Assembly (NCBI GenBank): GCA_016932965.1
Contig: JAFGBW010000122.1
Span: 1 to 9,120, forward strand
Origin: Candidatus Auribacterota bacterium
GTDB lineage: Bacteria; Auribacterota; JAFGBW01
Direction: 5' to 3'
Length of the DNA stretch: 9,120 bases
The position numbers and the translations under genes were made by a program. The notes under the pieces were generated by a model. It ran no database searches and was not told the DNA's origin. It was given only the letters and a program-made list of their open reading frames with translations. Position 1 is the first letter of the stretch. Every line of letters begins with the position of its first letter. Positions 1,327 through 9,012 of this stretch are shown piece by piece.

Positions 1327-1366
1327 TTGCACAAAAACTTGTTTAAGTGCACAATCGTTTGTGCAA
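1327..1366 (+). promoter_or_regulatory. Operator-like perfect inverted repeat before the binding-protein gene
   Basis: TTGCACAAA (1327-1335) is exactly mirrored by TTTGTGCAA (1358-1366) with 22 nt between. A third, inner copy of the motif occurs as GTGCACAA (1347-1354), and a small ACTT/AAGT pair lies between. The repeat ends 4 nt before the ATG at 1371. It also contains a weak sigma-70-like pair, TTGCAC (1327-1332) and CACAAT (1350-1355), with a 17-nt spacer. It could be a repressor or activator site, or a hairpin over the translation start. No regulator can be named from the sequence. Confidence 0.45.
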
Positions 1367-1370
1367 CTTT

Positions 1371-2969
1371 ATGCAGATTCCATTTAAAAAAATCTCGGTT
1401 TTTCTCGTTTTGACCGGCGGGGTAATCCTTTTTCTGTTCATTCTGTTTGACTCTTTTTTTTCAGATAGGGAAACGGTTTCATCCTCCACTCATAACACGT
1501 TATTTCTTGGAGGGGTTTATGATAAAAAAGTAGGGCTGAATCCTTATTTCATTCTGGACGGAGATAATATTCAGATGGTCCAGTTTCTTTATTCAACCCT
1601 GGTGAAACTGGATGAAAAAGGGCAAGTCATCGGGGATGTTGCTGAAGATTGGTCCGTTGCTCCTGATTTTAAATCCATCACATTCAGGCTCAGAAAAGAT
1701 GTTTATTTTCACGATAAGACCCCTTTGACTTCAAAAGACATTAAATGGACCTGGGAAAAAATGATCCGTTCTTCAGACAATGTTTTTTTCCAATGCTACT
1801 CTTTTATCGATTCATCTGAAACGCCTGATCCCTATACCATTTCATTTTATTTTAACAGGGCAACTCCTTCCCCTCAGTATTATTTTATTTTTGAGATTCT
1901 GCCCTCTCATGTGAATGCAGATTCCAGGACTTCGGATTTTAGTTCAACGCCTGTCGGATCAGGGGCTTATGTTTTTGATCATTGGGATGATTCGGTTTGT
2001 TATTATAGAAAAAATCTTGTTTATTATGAAAAGACCCCTCGTCTTGAATTCATTCGTTTTATATCGTATCCGAATAATGATGCGGTTTGGTCAGGTTTCA
2101 TGCGGGAGGAAATTGATTTTTTTCTAAGGCTGAATCATGATCAGTATAACATGATCAGCCGGTCAGATGAATTCATCATCAAAGAAGCAAAGAGCCTGCG
2201 ATATTTTCTTCTGCTTCTAAATAAAAACCAGGTTTTTCTAAAAAATAAAAGGGTCAGACAGGCCATTGACCTCTGCATCAACAGGGTGGAGCTGGTTGAA
2301 AAGATATTTTATGGAAAAGCCAGGATTATTTCAGGCCCCTATGATGAGGATTTTCTATATGTTGTCGGCGGCAGGGAAAAGGCATCTTATCAGCCGGAAA
2401 AGGCTATCAGTATGTTAAAATCCTGCGGATTTGAAGACTCTAATCATGACAGTATTTTGGAAAAGCAAAATCAGCCTTTTATTTTGAGATTATTGATTAA
2501 TGAGAATATGACGGATAGTCTTGAGATAGCAAAGTTGATAAAATTGCAATTAAAACAGGCAGGAATTTTTGTTAAAATCATATCGATCTCTAATGCAGAA
2601 GAATATGCCGGTGCTTTATCCCGAGATATGGATTTTGACATGATCATTGATTATAAGCCTTTGAATCTGGAGGAATTGGCTTTGATTTACTGGGTTAAGG
2701 ATATCGGAAGAAAACCTTATCTTCTTGAAAAACAGTCCCTTTTCACCAGGATGTACTGGAAAATGCTGAGAACAAAAAACAAAAATATAAAAAGATATTA
2801 TTATCAGTCCCTGTTAAAAATAATCGCCAATGAAAAAACCAGCCTGTTTTTGGTGAATCCTTTGGAAATGTTAGCTTTTCAGAAGGGTTTGGATTTAAGT
2901 GGCACGAGTTTTGCACCTCAATTTCAATATGAAAATCTGGGGAAAATACAAAAGGAGGCAAGAACATGA
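1371..2969 (+). CDS. Membrane-anchored family-5 ABC solute-binding protein (oligopeptide/nickel type)
   Basis: This is a 532-residue protein of the SBP_bac_5 family (OppA/DppA/NikA relatives), which bind peptides or metal complexes outside the inner membrane. Family features: LVKLDEKGQVIGDVAEDW (about residues 77-94), the SITFRLRKDVYFHDKTPLTSKDI stretch (about 102-124), a TPVGSGAYVF turn, and RVRQAIDLCINRVELVEKIFYGKA in the second half. The N-terminus (KK, then about 20 hydrophobic residues 9-28) is a signal or anchor segment with no lipobox Cys and no clear AxA cleavage site, so the protein is probably tethered. A GTG at 1347 would add eight polar residues but sits inside the inverted repeat, and an in-frame stop lies at 1344-1346. 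ATG 1371 is preferred, though neither start has a clear Shine-Dalgarno. No permease or ATPase partners for import are nearby. The gene looks more AT-rich than its neighbours. Its stop overlaps the next start (ATGA), so the peptide gene may be translationally coupled to it. Confidence 0.82.
   Translation: MQIPFKKISVFLVLTGGVILFLFILFDSFFSDRETVSSSTHNTLFLGGVYDKKVGLNPYFILDGDNIQMVQFLYSTLVKLDEKGQVIGDVAEDWSVAPDFKSITFRLRKDVYFHDKTPLTSKDIKWTWEKMIRSSDNVFFQCYSFIDSSETPDPYTISFYFNRATPSPQYYFIFEILPSHVNADSRTSDFSSTPVGSGAYVFDHWDDSVCYYRKNLVYYEKTPRLEFIRFISYPNNDAVWSGFMREEIDFFLRLNHDQYNMISRSDEFIIKEAKSLRYFLLLLNKNQVFLKNKRVRQAIDLCINRVELVEKIFYGKARIISGPYDEDFLYVVGGREKASYQPEKAISMLKSCGFEDSNHDSILEKQNQPFILRLLINENMTDSLEIAKLIKLQLKQAGIFVKIISISNAEEYAGALSRDMDFDMIIDYKPLNLEELALIYWVKDIGRKPYLLEKQSLFTRMYWKMLRTKNKNIKRYYYQSLLKIIANEKTSLFLVNPLEMLAFQKGLDLSGTSFAPQFQYENLGKIQKEART
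2900..2915 (+). promoter_or_regulatory. Sigma-54 (-24/-12) promoter for the precursor peptide
   Basis: TGGCACGAGTTTTGCA matches the core consensus TGGCACG-N4-TTGCW at every specified base, with the strict GG-N10-GC spacing (GG at 2901-2902, GC at 2913-2914). It lies inside the last codons of the binding-protein gene. The predicted start of transcription is near 2926, giving a leader of about 40 nt that contains the strong RBS before the ATG at 2966. Transcription ending at the terminator would give an mRNA of about 195 nt encoding only the peptide. Sigma-54 promoters need an NtrC-type activator; none is in the window. Confidence 0.85.
2951..2958 (+). promoter_or_regulatory. Strong ribosome binding site of the precursor peptide
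   Basis: AAAGGAGG lies 7 nt before the ATG at 2966. It is close to an ideal Shine-Dalgarno and the strongest in the window, and it decides the start of a gene that is otherwise easy to miss. It lies within the final codons of the upstream gene. Confidence 0.88.
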
Positions 2970-3076
2970 AATTCAAAATCCTTAAAAAGGGCGTAAAAAG
3001 CGCTGTGAAGGCCCTTGCCGGCAGATGCTGCATGACTATGCCGGTTAACTATTTCCCTGGCGCCCCCGAGAACTAG
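2966..3076 (+). CDS. Putative RiPP precursor peptide, 36 residues (radical-SAM substrate)
   Basis: This small ORF starts with ATG overlapping the upstream stop (ATGA) and ends with TAG at 3074-3076. Residues 1-20 are strongly basic (seven Lys/Arg, no acidic residue) and could form an amphipathic helix (KILKKGVKSAVKALAG). The tail, residues 21-36, has a different character: CCMTMPVNYFPGAPEN, with adjacent Cys21-Cys22, aromatic Tyr29-Phe30, three prolines and a single acidic residue, Glu35. This leader/core split, a dedicated sigma-54 promoter, an excellent RBS, an intrinsic terminator and a SPASM radical-SAM gene directly downstream are what a RiPP precursor locus looks like. There is no Gly-Gly leader cleavage site. 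Cys21/Cys22 are the obvious candidates for thioether formation or metal binding, but the aromatic residues or a C-C link are also possible. I do not recognise the peptide family. Confidence 0.86.
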   Translation: MKFKILKKGVKSAVKALAGRCCMTMPVNYFPGAPEN

Positions 3077-3090
3077 ATCAGGGGGAAGTT

Positions 3091-3121
3091 GGCCGGAACT
3101 AAAGTTCCGGCCTTTTTTTTT
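3091..3121 (+). terminator. Strong rho-independent terminator after the precursor gene
   Basis: GGCCGGAAC (3091-3099) pairs perfectly with GTTCCGGCC (3104-3112) around a TAAA loop, followed by nine T (3113-3121). A weaker C5/G5 hairpin (3063-3067 with 3081-3085) brackets the peptide's stop codon just upstream. Transcripts from the sigma-54 promoter should mostly end here. Readthrough would supply a lower level of the maturase, exporter and kinase message. Confidence 0.95.
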
Positions 3122-3226: not shown

Positions 3227-4564
3227 ATGAAACCGTCCTATTTCAACCTTTACATCCAGAATTATCCCGGAAACGGACAGACCCTGGTCTATAACACCAG
3301 AACCCAGGCCATGGCTGTTTTTGAAAATGACCTGGCATGCCTTCTTGAAAACAATACCGGCATCATACTCAAACTGCAGGAAAAGGAATTCGGCAGCCTC
3401 ATTGAAGAGGGGTTCTGCGTGTACGATCACGAGGACGAGAGAGCCATTTTAGAAGACTGGTTCAATGAGGTTTGTTATTCAAGAGATGTCCTTTCAGCCA
3501 CGATTTTAACAACCTACCGCTGTAATTTTAACTGTCCCTATTGCTTTGAGCAAAAGGCTGAAAAACATTCTCAGGACATGAGCCAGGAGATGGCAGGCAA
3601 GGTTTTTCACTGGCTTTTTGAAAAAGCGCGGGAGAAAAAGGTCCGGGCGATCCATCTTTTTTATTACGGGGGAGAGCCGCTCTTAAACAAAAAGATCATC
3701 CGGTATCTTTCGGTCCTGATGAAGGACTTTGCGGACCTGTATCATATTGACTTTAAGTTTGGAATCGTCACCAACGGTTATCTGATCGATGCTGCCGATA
3801 CAAAGGATTTGAAAACACTGGGGCTGGATTTTTACCGGATCACCCTGGACGGGAGTGAAAAGTGGCATGATCAGACCAGGAGGCTGAAAAACGGAAAAGG
3901 GTCTTTTGCCAGAATCATGGAGAATATCGAGAAAAACACAGACGGGGTCAAGATCCTGATCAGCGGGAATTTCACTGAGAAGAATTTTCCCGGGATTTTA
4001 GATTTGATCGATTATCTAGGAACTCATCCGGCAAAATCCCGGATTCATTCGCTGTCTTTTTCGCCCCTTGTGGAAATCATGGACGCGAGCTGCCAGTTTG
4101 ATACCACGCATTGTTTCAAAAACTATGAATCGGAATTCAGCCGCATCGCCCTGACGATCCAGGAGTCGTTGAAAAAGCGGGGTTTTAAAACGACAAGGGA
4201 TAAGATCGGCATGCAGACCTGTCCTTTTAAAATAAAGGATACGGACGTGGTCATCACCCCTGAAGGAGACATCTATAAATGTCCGGTCACTCTCGGCAAC
4301 AAGGATTTCTGCGTCGGGCATGTCAGTTCATTGGAATTGAACGAAAAAAATAAATCCATCATCGCCAATGATTCATGGAAAAGATGTTATCCCTGCCCGT
4401 ATCTGCCGATATGCTGCGGAGGATGTTATTACAAGGCTCTGGTCCATCACGGGGATTTGTTTGCCATCGACTGTCCGAAACTGTTTTTTGAAGATTCTCT
4501 GCCCTTAATCATCAAGGAGGAGTATGAAAAGCTGTCTCTTGAAGCTTGCGCCTCTTCTTTATAG
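3227..4564 (+). CDS. Radical SAM/SPASM peptide maturase
   Basis: This 445-residue enzyme is predicted to modify the 36-residue peptide encoded just upstream. The N-terminal 90 residues (including LVYNTRTQAMAVFENDL) resemble the leading region common in SPASM peptide maturases. The radical SAM core has Cys99, Cys103 and Cys106 in RCNFNCPYCFE (CX3CX2C, the SAM-binding 4Fe-4S cluster), then YYGGEPLL (about 146-153), VTNGYLI (181-187) and ITLDGS (205-210). The C-terminal SPASM domain shows Cys332, a GX4C unit ending at Cys352, an exact CX2CX5CX3C (Cys387, 390, 396, 400) and Cys416, consistent with ligands for two auxiliary clusters. Known SPASM maturases make thioether or C-C crosslinks using radical chemistry; which reaction occurs here cannot be read. 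The gene shares the operon with the exporter, which overlaps its end by 41 nt. NCBI lists several named small-peptide/SPASM pairs (for example geopeptide maturases); membership is untested. Confidence 0.94.
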   Translation: MKPSYFNLYIQNYPGNGQTLVYNTRTQAMAVFENDLACLLENNTGIILKLQEKEFGSLIEEGFCVYDHEDERAILEDWFNEVCYSRDVLSATILTTYRCNFNCPYCFEQKAEKHSQDMSQEMAGKVFHWLFEKAREKKVRAIHLFYYGGEPLLNKKIIRYLSVLMKDFADLYHIDFKFGIVTNGYLIDAADTKDLKTLGLDFYRITLDGSEKWHDQTRRLKNGKGSFARIMENIEKNTDGVKILISGNFTEKNFPGILDLIDYLGTHPAKSRIHSLSFSPLVEIMDASCQFDTTHCFKNYESEFSRIALTIQESLKKRGFKTTRDKIGMQTCPFKIKDTDVVITPEGDIYKCPVTLGNKDFCVGHVSSLELNEKNKSIIANDSWKRCYPCPYLPICCGGCYYKALVHHGDLFAIDCPKLFFEDSLPLIIKEEYEKLSLEACASSL

Positions 4565-6299
4565 GCAGAAAAAATGGCTTGCCTGTTTGATACTTCTCAT
4601 ATTATGCGCCTCATTATTGGAAATGATTTTTCCCCTTGGCATCCGTTTTTTATTTAACGAGGCGATTCCCTTAAAAAAGACTTCCTCCATTGCCTGGTTT
4701 TTTTTTGTGGTGCTTCTTGCTTTCAGCCTGAAATCGTTTTTGACCGTGCTCCAGGAAAAAGGTTCAGCGGTTTTTGCCGGAAATATCGTGACGGAACTTC
4801 GTGAACAAATGTTCCGGAAGCTTTTCCGGACAACAATTGGTTACGTGCATGAACGGGGTCCAGGAGAAATCAGTTCGCTTTTTATGAACGATCTCCAGAC
4901 GCTCTATGACATGATCCAGACGGGAGTGGTGAACGGGACGGCTTCCCTTCTCATGGCGGTCTGTTTTCTCAGCGCTCTCCTTGTCATTCATGCTCCGCTG
5001 ACACTGGTTTCCTTTATCACGGTGCCTTTTTTTATTTATTTTTTCATAGGCTGGCACCGTTCAGTCAAGGAAAGAACGTTAGACACCCGGAAAAGCCTGG
5101 ATAAAATGAACGCATTCATCATCGAGACCGTGCATCTTCTGTCCCTGGTCAGGCTGAATAATCTGGAAGCGCTTTTTCATTCCCGCAGGCGGCGTTTGGA
5201 CCATTCCATATTCATGAGCCTTGTCAGGCAGAAGGCCGGTCAGGGCGTTTTCATGGCTTTGGTGTTTTTCAGTATTCTTCTGTCGTTTGCGCTGACCCTT
5301 TGCGCAGGCGCCTGGCTTGTCATGGAAAACAGGCTTTCCATCGGGGATTTGTTCGCATTTTATATTCTTTTACAGGCTTTTTTTCAGCCGCTCATGGGAT
5401 TTTTTGTTGCATTCCGATCCATCCAGACAGGGATCGCGGTTTTTGAAAGGATGGATCATTTCATGGAAGATCTTGATTCCCATTGTTTCGGCAACGGGAT
5501 TTTTCCCCATCCTTTGAAAGCAAGGCTTTCCGAGAAAAAACGCCTGGCTTTGGAATTGAGGGACGTCAGTTTTGCGTACAACGGAAAGGCGGTTCTGAAA
5601 AATTTAAACCTGGAGATTCTCAAGGGAGAGAGGGTGCTGATCGTGGGATTGAACGGCAGCGGAAAATCGTCGCTGGTCAAATTATTTTTAGGTTTTTACG
5701 CGCCTTATGAGGGTGAGATTTTCGTCCTGGGAAAAAATTTAAGGGATTGGCCCCAGCAGAATCTGTCCCGGATTTTTTCCGTGGTGGAACAGGATACACA
5801 TGTGTTTCGGGGAAGCCTCAGACAAAATCTGAATTACGGGAGAGATGCGGCCTCAAAAGCCGAGTATCCTTATTTTCTGGAGGGCCTTAATCTGAAAAGG
5901 TTTGAAGGGGAAAAGCCGGTCATCCTCGAAAACGGAAAAAATCTTTCCGCAGGGGAAAGACAGCGGATTGCCCTGTTAAGGGCATTGATGAAGGAAAAGC
6001 CGGTTTATGTTTTTGACGAGGCTTTTTCAAGCCAGGATGCGGACTGGCTCGGTTTTCTTCCTCATTTCATGAACGCCCTTTCGCCGGATAAGACTTTCAT
6101 TGGGATCACTCATCAGTTGTCAAACGCTCCTTATGCTGATAGAGTGGTGGTGATTGACCAGGGTTCCATTCTTGAAACGGGAAGTCACAGTGATTTAATG
6201 GAAAACTGCCAGTGGTACCGCCATTTGTATAGTCTCTATCAGAAGGAAAATGGAAAAAGGAATCTCAGAAACGAAACCGCAAACGTCCGTTCCTGTTAA
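4524..6299 (+). CDS. ABC exporter, fused permease and ATPase, probable peptide export
   Basis: This is a 591-residue inner-membrane half-transporter expected to act as a homodimer. Residues about 17-305 are a type I exporter membrane domain with some six hydrophobic segments (for example 19-40, 57-75, 140-156, 159-176, 244-266 and 275-295). The ATPase domain has Walker A GLNGSGKSS (375-383), Q-loop Gln423, signature LSAGERQ (474-480), Walker B VYVFDEA with Asp498 and Glu499, and H-loop His530, so it should be active. There is no N-terminal C39 peptidase domain: the first membrane helix starts near residue 17, so the transporter does not cut the leader itself. The start is ATG 4524, preceded by AAGGAGG with a short 3-nt spacer, inside the maturase gene, which suggests coupled translation. 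Position next to the precursor and maturase makes the modified peptide the likely cargo. A lipid or drug exporter is the alternative. Confidence 0.93.
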   Translation: MKSCLLKLAPLLYRQKKWLACLILLILCASLLEMIFPLGIRFLFNEAIPLKKTSSIAWFFFVVLLAFSLKSFLTVLQEKGSAVFAGNIVTELREQMFRKLFRTTIGYVHERGPGEISSLFMNDLQTLYDMIQTGVVNGTASLLMAVCFLSALLVIHAPLTLVSFITVPFFIYFFIGWHRSVKERTLDTRKSLDKMNAFIIETVHLLSLVRLNNLEALFHSRRRRLDHSIFMSLVRQKAGQGVFMALVFFSILLSFALTLCAGAWLVMENRLSIGDLFAFYILLQAFFQPLMGFFVAFRSIQTGIAVFERMDHFMEDLDSHCFGNGIFPHPLKARLSEKKRLALELRDVSFAYNGKAVLKNLNLEILKGERVLIVGLNGSGKSSLVKLFLGFYAPYEGEIFVLGKNLRDWPQQNLSRIFSVVEQDTHVFRGSLRQNLNYGRDAASKAEYPYFLEGLNLKRFEGEKPVILENGKNLSAGERQRIALLRALMKEKPVYVFDEAFSSQDADWLGFLPHFMNALSPDKTFIGITHQLSNAPYADRVVVIDQGSILETGSHSDLMENCQWYRHLYSLYQKENGKRNLRNETANVRSC

Positions 6300-8070
6300 A
6301 AGGAATAATCCCTTCTCACTTGCCGCCATGCTCCGCCGAAAGATTGAAGAGAGTCTTGCCTGGCAATTGCTTTTTATTTTTTTCTGGATTGTATTCATCA
6401 TCATCCTTTCCCACGCCTTGCTCATCAGAAAAGGGCTCATCAGCCATGTCATGAAAAGCCGCGAGTTGGCTGCGAAACAAATCGTCAGTCTCACTGCCCA
6501 CCAGGCCGGTTATTTTGTCATTGAATCGGAAAAAAAACTACAGATGCTCAAAGCGGTCCTGGAGACGGCCCAGCTCACTTCTAATGACATGGAGTCCCTT
6601 TTGGTGAGGACTTCTTTGGAAGATCGCGCATTTGGTTACCTGTCCCTTTTCGACCGTGATGGAAAGGAGCTTTACTGCAGTGAGCCTGTTAAAAAGGGTC
6701 ATGTGTTGCCCCAGGGCGTCTTTATTGACACGGTTCATCAACAGATTTCCTTTCGTTCTGAAGTGGGCATCAGCCGGGAGTTTTTTCCCGTTATTTTTGA
6801 AGCATGGCCTGTTTCAATTTTAGGAAAGACAAAATGGGTATTGTACGCGGAGATCAACCTGAAGGGATTATGGGAATATCTCGACACGCTCGAGAGAGAA
6901 GGAGAAGGCCATTTTTTTATGGTCAGCGATAAAGGGGTGCTGTGCTCCTATAAGGAAAGAAAGTTTGTCATGAGAAATGAGGATGAAAAATCCAGAAAAA
7001 TCGCGGAATCCGCAATCCTGGCCATCCATAAGCCGGTGCTCATCCGATTGGGCTCGGATGAACAGTATCTGTTGTCTGCGAAAACCATCCAGAACCTCCC
7101 CTTTTATCTTGTGTACCAGGAGGACATGTCGCTGATCATGAATGAGACTTCCAAGATCAGTTTTATTGTGGTCTGGTCCTCTTTGGGTATTCTTGTTTTG
7201 TCTCTTGTTCCCGTGGTCTGGGCATCGAAAAGGATTTCCAGGCCGGTTCTGGATCTGGTTGCGAATACCAAATGGATCGGTGATAAGTATCTGAACCGGA
7301 TGCCCCTCATGGAAAAAAGAAAAGATGAAATCGGCACGCTTTTCCGGGCTTTTTATGATATGAACGAAAAGGTGATGGAATCCAAAGCCAGGGAGAGAAT
7401 GGCCGTCATCGGCGAATCAGCCGTGGGGATTTCCCATGAAATCAAAAATCCCATCACGGCTATTAAAAATTTCATATCTCTGATGATCGAAAATCCTGCT
7501 GATCCTGAGGTCCAGAAGGAGTTCAAAAAGGCGGTCCCAAGGGAGGTCCGCCGGATCGAGGGCATGCTGGAGGATCTATCGTCTCTTTCCCTGGTTAAAA
7601 AACTCGATAAAAGAAATTGCACCCTGGATGCCGTCCTGGATGATGTCTTTTCCCTTTTTGACAGGGAATTGAAGGAACGCCGTATTCAATATGTGAAAAA
7701 TAATTTTTCTGGAACGGATGCCTCTCTCAACGCCGATCCCGAAAGGTTGAAATCCGTTTTCATCAATTTACTGCAGAATTCCATTGCCTCCATGCCTGAG
7801 GGGGGGCTGATCCAGGCCGAAATCAGGGAAAGCGAGGTCAAACCAGGCGGAAGAAAGGAATGGGTGGTCACTTTCGAGGACAACGGCAGCGGGATTCCTC
7901 CCCAGGTCATCGGTAATATTTTTAATCCCTTTTTTACGACTAAAAAGAAGGGGCTAGGTATCGGACTCACTCTTTCGAAGGGGATCATTGAACAGCATGG
8001 CGGATCTATGTCTGTTTTTTCCGAAGGGGAGGGCAAAGGAGCGTTATTTACGATTATGCTGCCGGTGTGA
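6250..8070 (+). CDS. Membrane sensor histidine kinase (dCache-like, HAMP, HisKA, HATPase), NtrB-like core
   Basis: This is a 606-residue kinase. A transmembrane segment at about 36-58 is followed by a periplasmic region of about 245 residues with the look of a double Cache sensor (GYLSLFDRDGKELYCS near 129-144; HFFMVSDKGVLCSY near 221-234). A second membrane segment (about 304-324) and a HAMP linker (about 325-380) follow. The catalytic core has H-box GISHEIKNPITAI with His396, N-box NLLQNSIASMPEGG with Asn510, G1 DNGSGIP (544-550), an F-box FNPFFTT and G2 GLGIGL (568-573). This pattern resembles NtrB/AtoS/ZraS kinases, whose partners are often sigma-54 activators. No receiver domain or response-regulator gene is in the window. 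The gene starts inside the exporter gene (50-nt overlap) with AGAAGG 3 nt before the ATG. Likely job: sensing an extracytoplasmic ligand, possibly the exported peptide, and controlling the cassette. The ligand is unknown. Confidence 0.93.
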   Translation: MEKGISETKPQTSVPVKRNNPFSLAAMLRRKIEESLAWQLLFIFFWIVFIIILSHALLIRKGLISHVMKSRELAAKQIVSLTAHQAGYFVIESEKKLQMLKAVLETAQLTSNDMESLLVRTSLEDRAFGYLSLFDRDGKELYCSEPVKKGHVLPQGVFIDTVHQQISFRSEVGISREFFPVIFEAWPVSILGKTKWVLYAEINLKGLWEYLDTLEREGEGHFFMVSDKGVLCSYKERKFVMRNEDEKSRKIAESAILAIHKPVLIRLGSDEQYLLSAKTIQNLPFYLVYQEDMSLIMNETSKISFIVVWSSLGILVLSLVPVVWASKRISRPVLDLVANTKWIGDKYLNRMPLMEKRKDEIGTLFRAFYDMNEKVMESKARERMAVIGESAVGISHEIKNPITAIKNFISLMIENPADPEVQKEFKKAVPREVRRIEGMLEDLSSLSLVKKLDKRNCTLDAVLDDVFSLFDRELKERRIQYVKNNFSGTDASLNADPERLKSVFINLLQNSIASMPEGGLIQAEIRESEVKPGGRKEWVVTFEDNGSGIPPQVIGNIFNPFFTTKKKGLGIGLTLSKGIIEQHGGSMSVFSEGEGKGALFTIMLPV

Positions 8071-8367: not shown

Positions 8368-9012
8368 ATGAAAGATATTGAGGAAAAGCCAGGTTTCAAG
8401 TATTTGTTCCGGAGATTCGTTTCCGGGCTCTTTTATTATCGTTTTTATCGCCTGTTTTGTCCGGACAGACCTTTTTATGCCCCGGCTGCGATTAAAAATA
8501 TCGGACGAAGACTGAATAAAAATTTAACCGTCTTTGAATGGGGGACCGGACAGAGCAGTGTCTGGTATTCCAAAAGAGTGAAAGAATATATCGGTGTTGA
8601 ATACGATGAAACCTGGTTCAAAAAGGTAACCGGAGAACTTCAGAAAGATCAGTTGGGTAATGCGAGGATCATCTATTCTCCACCGAGCCGCGATGCTGCT
8701 GATTTTAACTGGGAAGGGGAATGGCCCCATTATCCTCTCTTGAAGCACCCTCCCTCCAGACCTGAATTCAGAAATTATATGTCGGTTATTGACGGTTTTC
8801 CGGATCATTATTTCGACTGCATATCCGTAGACGGGAGGGAAAGAGTGGGCTGTGTTCTGCATGCCTTGCCGAAACTGGCTCAGGATGGTTTTTTAATCCT
8901 GGATGATTCCTCCAGAGCCAGATACAAAGAGGCATTCGAAATATTGAGCGGCTGGAAGAGACTGACATTTGATTTCGGCTTGCTGCAGACAAGTCTGTTT
9001 TTCAGGAACTGA
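8368..9012 (+). CDS. Putative class I SAM-dependent methyltransferase
   Basis: This is a 214-residue soluble protein with a Rossmann-like methyltransferase pattern: motif I as VFEWGTGQSS (55-64), an acidic loop after the next strand in YIGVEYDE (74-81), a later strand FDCISVDGRERVGC (149-162) and GFLILDDSSRARY (174-186). It resembles small FkbM/Methyltransf_24-like proteins often found near polysaccharide or lipid biosynthesis genes. The substrate is not evident. The ATG at 8368 has only a weak purine stretch upstream (TCTGAGAATC); an overlapping ATG at 8364 is out of frame and stops after five codons. The repeat element and a gap of almost 300 bp separate it from the kinase, so it is probably a separate unit. 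A role in modifying the peptide is possible but unsupported. Confidence 0.8.
   Translation: MKDIEEKPGFKYLFRRFVSGLFYYRFYRLFCPDRPFYAPAAIKNIGRRLNKNLTVFEWGTGQSSVWYSKRVKEYIGVEYDETWFKKVTGELQKDQLGNARIIYSPPSRDAADFNWEGEWPHYPLLKHPPSRPEFRNYMSVIDGFPDHYFDCISVDGRERVGCVLHALPKLAQDGFLILDDSSRARYKEAFEILSGWKRLTFDFGLLQTSLFFRN

Follow-up and report, generated by a model that had tools for sequence, protein, structure and literature searches.

Geopeptide maturases are represented in NCBIfam by TIGR04280, an equivalog model marked hypothetical, and no mention of a geopeptide maturase was found in the open-access literature searched. The CteB/CteA thioether RiPPs provide the closest solved maturase, CteB, and the PQQ set (PqqA-PqqE-PqqU) joins a short precursor, an RRE-SPASM enzyme and a TonB receptor. 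Methanobactins arise from precursors of 22-40 aa; the copper-loaded product is taken in through MbnT and then bound by MbnE, a relative of OppA/AppA, and no importer at the inner membrane is known for it (PMC7558416).

The window, that is the whole stretch of 9,120 nucleotides analyzed here, is an entire 9.1-kb contig whose start cuts the TonB gene (Table 1). For comparison, loci with true TIGR04280 members and with sub-threshold relatives were gathered from several genome groups, and the short ORFs in their surroundings were read. One of these genomes, G001, belongs to the same order as the window.

Table 1. Features of the window, in order of position
Feature	Position	Strand	Basis or detail
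TonB-dependent receptor, C-terminal part (gene truncated by contig start)	7..1239	+	PF00593, 5.6e-21
Membrane-anchored family-5 solute-binding protein, peptide/nickel type	1347..2969	+	PF00496, 3.2e-62; NikA-type matches
Precursor ribosome-binding site AGGAGG	2953..2958	+	Sequence; 7 nt before ATG
RiPP precursor, 36 aa, MKFKILKKGVKSAVKALAGRCCMTMPVNYFPGAPEN	2966..3076 (stop included)	+	Orthologue and family alignment
Parts of the precursor			Strand motif KFKILKKG; 12-residue stretch ending AGR; CC = Cys21-Cys22; tail MTMPVNYFPGAPEN
Intrinsic terminator/attenuator between precursor and maturase	3091..3121	+	
Radical SAM/SPASM maturase, N-terminal RRE-like domain (residues 1-84)	3227..4564	+	TIGR04280 match, model, cysteines
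ABC exporter, membrane and ATPase domains	4524..6299	+	PF00664, PF00005; orthologue in G001
Sensor histidine kinase	6250..8070	+	HisKA, HATPase_c; G001 orthologue, 1.7e-168

The precursor gene and its orthologue

The 36-residue ORF that the initial annotation had singled out as an easily missed gene lies exactly where it was placed, and it is a real gene with an orthologue (MKLKVIKKGVKSALKCAAGPCCKQGPVNFFPEP) at the same position in G001, before the orthologous maturase. The two precursors are 64% identical over 33 positions and the two maturases 52% identical; the precursor alignment scored 107.5, against a maximum of 51.5 among 20,000 shuffles, and third codon positions hold 19 of the 37 nucleotide differences between the two peptide genes. 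This conservation, together with the family-wide pattern described below, led us to reject a chance ORF. Gene order is identical in the window and in G001, running from TonB receptor through family-5 binding protein, peptide, radical SAM enzyme and ABC exporter to histidine kinase.

Most of the signals attributed to the gene by the same annotation were recovered, including its ribosome-binding site and, after it, a terminator formed by a perfect hairpin of 9 bp, rich in G+C, and a T-tract; G001 has a hairpin in the same precursor-maturase gap, with a different sequence. The SPASM radical SAM gene and then the ABC exporter follow downstream, as had been described. The claim of a dedicated promoter did not survive, since no promoter-like site was found in the 380 bp upstream of the precursor and its ATG shares bases with the TGA that ends the upstream 540-aa binding-protein gene (ATGA, 2966-2969). 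Start of the peptide gene and end of the binding-protein gene overlap in G001 as well, and promoter-like sites across the region occur at chance level (7 found, 6.0 expected). Given the overlap and the empty upstream stretch, the precursor is probably cotranscribed and translationally coupled with the binding-protein gene. At the far end of the window, positions 8368-9012 encode a protein of 214 aa whose sole match, to a methyltransferase model (PF13578), is weak (E 0.067).

The maturase and the precursor family

The longest ORF of the maturase begins at a TTG, a start that was rejected in favor of the ATG at 3227 by alignment with the G001 orthologue. TIGR04280 was its best NCBIfam model, at 271 bits against a curated cut-off of 400, so that the enzyme falls outside the equivalog; the G001 maturase scored 258 bits. 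In a maximum-likelihood tree, the 34 core-clade maturases came together on a single branch (100/100). The window fell with G001 and nine further enzymes in a neighboring group with weak support (81/51), at the base of which L143 and L097 were unplaced; these 13 are hereafter the window's group. Because it branches beside the core clade, the window maturase is, judged from its sequence, a geopeptide-like relative on a sister branch, outside the TIGR04280 equivalog. Its predicted structure (pLDDT 89.9) has an N-terminal domain of b-b-b-a-a-a order and aligns with CteB (5why) over residues 5-434, RRE domain included (Z 29, rmsd 3.6, 380 aligned), at 19-20% sequence identity. C99, C103 and C106 of the radical SAM site and the SPASM cysteines are invariant among the maturases. 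PADLOC returned generic radical SAM (viperin) matches only, which were set aside, plasmids yielded only other maturase families (<29% identity), viral contigs only distant radical SAM proteins, and the genome contigs one distant radical SAM locus. Three core-clade maturases (L164 3628-5793, L166 5019-7100 and L167 7020-9200) carry a C-terminal extension of about 270 aa with no Pfam match.

Around some 47 related maturases from several phyla, about 45 precursors with a single plan were recognized: a short strand hhVhxxG, then 7-16 residues, a CC or single C, and a short tail, as aligned on the conserved Gly and Cys. The search for conserved small ORFs that the initial annotation had suggested thus found one adjoining nearly every maturase homologue, which bears out the status of the window ORF as a RiPP precursor candidate. 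CC is present in 38 of 46 precursors and a single C in the other 8, all from the window's group; an aromatic residue often follows, and the tails beyond CC differ widely between lineages. The plan pattern with a ribosome-binding site occurred at 35 of 49 loci, whereas shuffled flanks averaged 0.55; this serves as a consistency check, the pattern having been derived from these very data. Five precursors depart from the strict spacing (L143, L137, L093, L164 and L170, the last of them doubtful), and no convincing precursor was found among the short ORFs of L097; at L136 and L151 the contig fragments end before the place that the peptide occupies in their close relative L135.

Ten precursors searched against NCBIfam with E up to 10 gave no matches, the window peptide had none in Pfam, and TIGR04279, guessed to be a precursor model, proved unrelated. 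The initial annotation had also held that the core matches no recognized class of modified peptide. This is not so for the anatomy, which is that of precursors beside bona fide TIGR04280 maturases, and it stands insofar as the window enzyme scores below the cut-off. Under our own definition of a geopeptide-like superfamily, the window shares both the precursor anatomy and the neighboring TonB receptor. Small ORFs of other kinds were also encountered: at L100 8837-9457 (G309), three small ORFs of another, Cys-rich precursor type (MEYIIKPVE...GPGGC...) stand in tandem behind a further SPASM maturase, and at L074 3106 and 3680 (minus strand, G339), two near-identical 35-aa ORFs (MIYLVDPQEAGTINGCILKFCFRMVPLYGV...) adjoin the maturase and likely belong to another RiPP type.

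Receptors, binding proteins and kinases beside the maturases

The company of TonB receptor, binding protein and histidine kinase lay outside the initial annotation, and it is this pattern that carries functional information. Neighborhood counts come from homology searches in which proteins of the window and of the loci served as queries, with spot checks by Pfam. A TonB receptor adjoins 31 of the 34 core-clade maturases, the remaining three being on contig fragments, and the only TonB receptors in the 3.1-Mb genome G452, two in number, are those of its two maturase loci. These loci form, at L156, two complete geopeptide cassettes in tandem, each with receptor, PF04392 protein, kinase, peptide and maturase. 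Within the window's group, the receptor was present at 5 of 13 loci, among them G001 with a full-length 639-aa homologue at the same place, and was not seen in the fetched DNA of the other 8. Similarity of the receptors to BtuB and to siderophore receptors is only generic, and that to PqqU weak; the ligand could therefore be something other than the peptide. In G001 and G474 (by Pfam), and probably in G402, the TonB gene is immediately preceded by genes for sigma-54 regulators.

The family-5 binding protein is adjacent at 12 of the window group's 13 loci, and at nine of these a histidine kinase is present too. A PF04392 binding protein occurs at 24 core-clade loci, beside the receptor and/or the kinase and most often with a histidine kinase. 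In the window, the closest folds to the binding protein are NikZ, NikA and AppA (Z 32-35), and residues 13-38 form an N-terminal helix. A screen by motif and hydrophobicity found no binding-protein-dependent import permease near the loci, except in G413. There, at L142 4313-8850, a geopeptide-like precursor lies beside a FecCD permease, Peripla_BP_2 and cobalamin-assembly-like genes; the locus lacks the family-5 protein, and FecCD comes with its own Peripla_BP_2 protein. This neighborhood may hint at a link to B12 or cobalt. Exporters adjoin the maturase at few loci only, as ABC proteins in the window and G001 and as MFS proteins in a few others. The window exporter matched only ABC_membrane, ABC_tran and generic AAA models, lacking the C39 peptidase domain of double-glycine, peptidase-exported bacteriocin systems.

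Proposed retrieval of the product, alternatives and known systems

We think it reasonably probable that the locus makes a RiPP that is secreted, retrieved and probably sensed, working as methanobactin does with a different chemistry. The common precursor anatomy, the CteB-like maturase, the company of receptor, binding protein and kinase, the NikA/NikZ/AppA-like binding proteins and the FecCD genes of G413 all point this way. An RRE binds a leader by taking it up as an extra strand, and the conserved hhVh strand of the precursors suits such docking; the KFKILKKG strand would accordingly be held by the RRE domain of the adjacent SPASM radical SAM enzyme, which we infer to modify the Cys-Cys region. 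A thioether at Cys21/Cys22 would be the likeliest product by analogy with CteB. The ABC protein would export the finished product, and the TonB-dependent receptor would return it through the outer membrane, probably carrying a metal. In the periplasm the membrane-anchored, peptide/nickel-type binding protein may capture it, and the linked histidine kinase would report its presence or control the operon. A metal site built of CC only is disfavored by the single-Cys members of the family.

The same genes could serve a pure signal, a modified pheromone re-imported only as far as the periplasm and presented by the binding protein to the histidine kinase with no metal involved. We regard this as rather unlikely, although each of the two binding-protein families, family 5 and PF04392, which are unrelated, is paired with a histidine kinase, the usual import permease was not seen at the loci, and sigma-54 regulator genes precede the TonB gene in the genomes named above. 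A TonB receptor would be an expensive means of taking up a small peptide, a metal complex would fit the conserved Cys-Cys and the NikA-like binding protein as well, and a known permease is likewise absent from methanobactin loci (PMC7558416).

Two further readings appear improbable. Excision of a redox cofactor or electron shuttle from the peptide, with recovery by the TonB receptor in the manner of PQQ, would account for the parallel between the gene sets and for the aromatic residue that often follows CC or C; a small cofactor would need a fixed core, yet the tails vary widely between lineages, and the similarity of the receptors to PqqU is weak. That the product is a bacteriocin, with the receptor as its target or as an immunity gene, we consider very improbable. 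The dedicated ABC exporter would suit it, as would the terminator after the precursor, which favors an excess of peptide over enzyme, but the window genes include neither a peptidase-type exporter nor an immunity gene, and at most loci the receptor lies in or beside the operon together with binding protein and kinase. A simple bacteriocin was rejected for want of the peptidase exporter.

Should retrieval of the product be confirmed, these peptides would be metallophores or signals made by radical SAM enzymes; until now such a role has been linked to other RiPP chemistries, that of methanobactin among them. We propose, as a tentative generalization a little short of probable, a radical SAM RiPP class built on retrieval, in which a dedicated TonB receptor and a binding protein feeding a histidine kinase would serve metallophore uptake or self-sensing, independently of methanobactin, in several phyla and with two binding-protein families. 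The geopeptide maturase has had a name in NCBIfam and hypothetical standing, with the ten precursors tested here lying outside the NCBIfam models; a shared precursor plan and an almost ubiquitous TonB receptor offer a functional lead and make the class testable.

Set against geopeptide systems proper, the window shares a sister-clade maturase, the succession of strand motif, spacer, Cys-Cys and tail, and the adjacent TonB receptor. It differs in a maturase of 271 bits where the cut-off is 400, in a family-5 binding protein where geopeptide loci have PF04392, in a basic leader where theirs are mostly acidic, and in a longer tail, PVN(Y/F)FP. CteB matches the maturase in structure over its full length, RRE domain included; identity is 19-20%, and the window has a CC-plus-tail core and genes for a TonB receptor and a binding protein. 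Sactipeptides and ranthipeptides are marked by a Cys thioether that a SPASM radical SAM enzyme installs; what the window offers toward this is only the enzyme fold (CteB, Z 29) and conserved Cys.

No MbnB or MbnC was found by Pfam and NCBIfam among the large ORFs of the 9.1-kb contig, and MbnE (5icq) fell outside the best 50 or 60 structure matches of the binding protein, which has no bearing either way. In common with methanobactin (mbnABC, MbnT, MbnE), the window joins to a short precursor a TonB receptor and a periplasmic binding protein of OppA/AppA type, without a known importer at the inner membrane (PMC7558416). A SPASM radical SAM maturase stands here in place of MbnB/MbnC, and a histidine kinase lies beside the binding protein. 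By this analogy, the system would work like methanobactin, yet would be no methanobactin.
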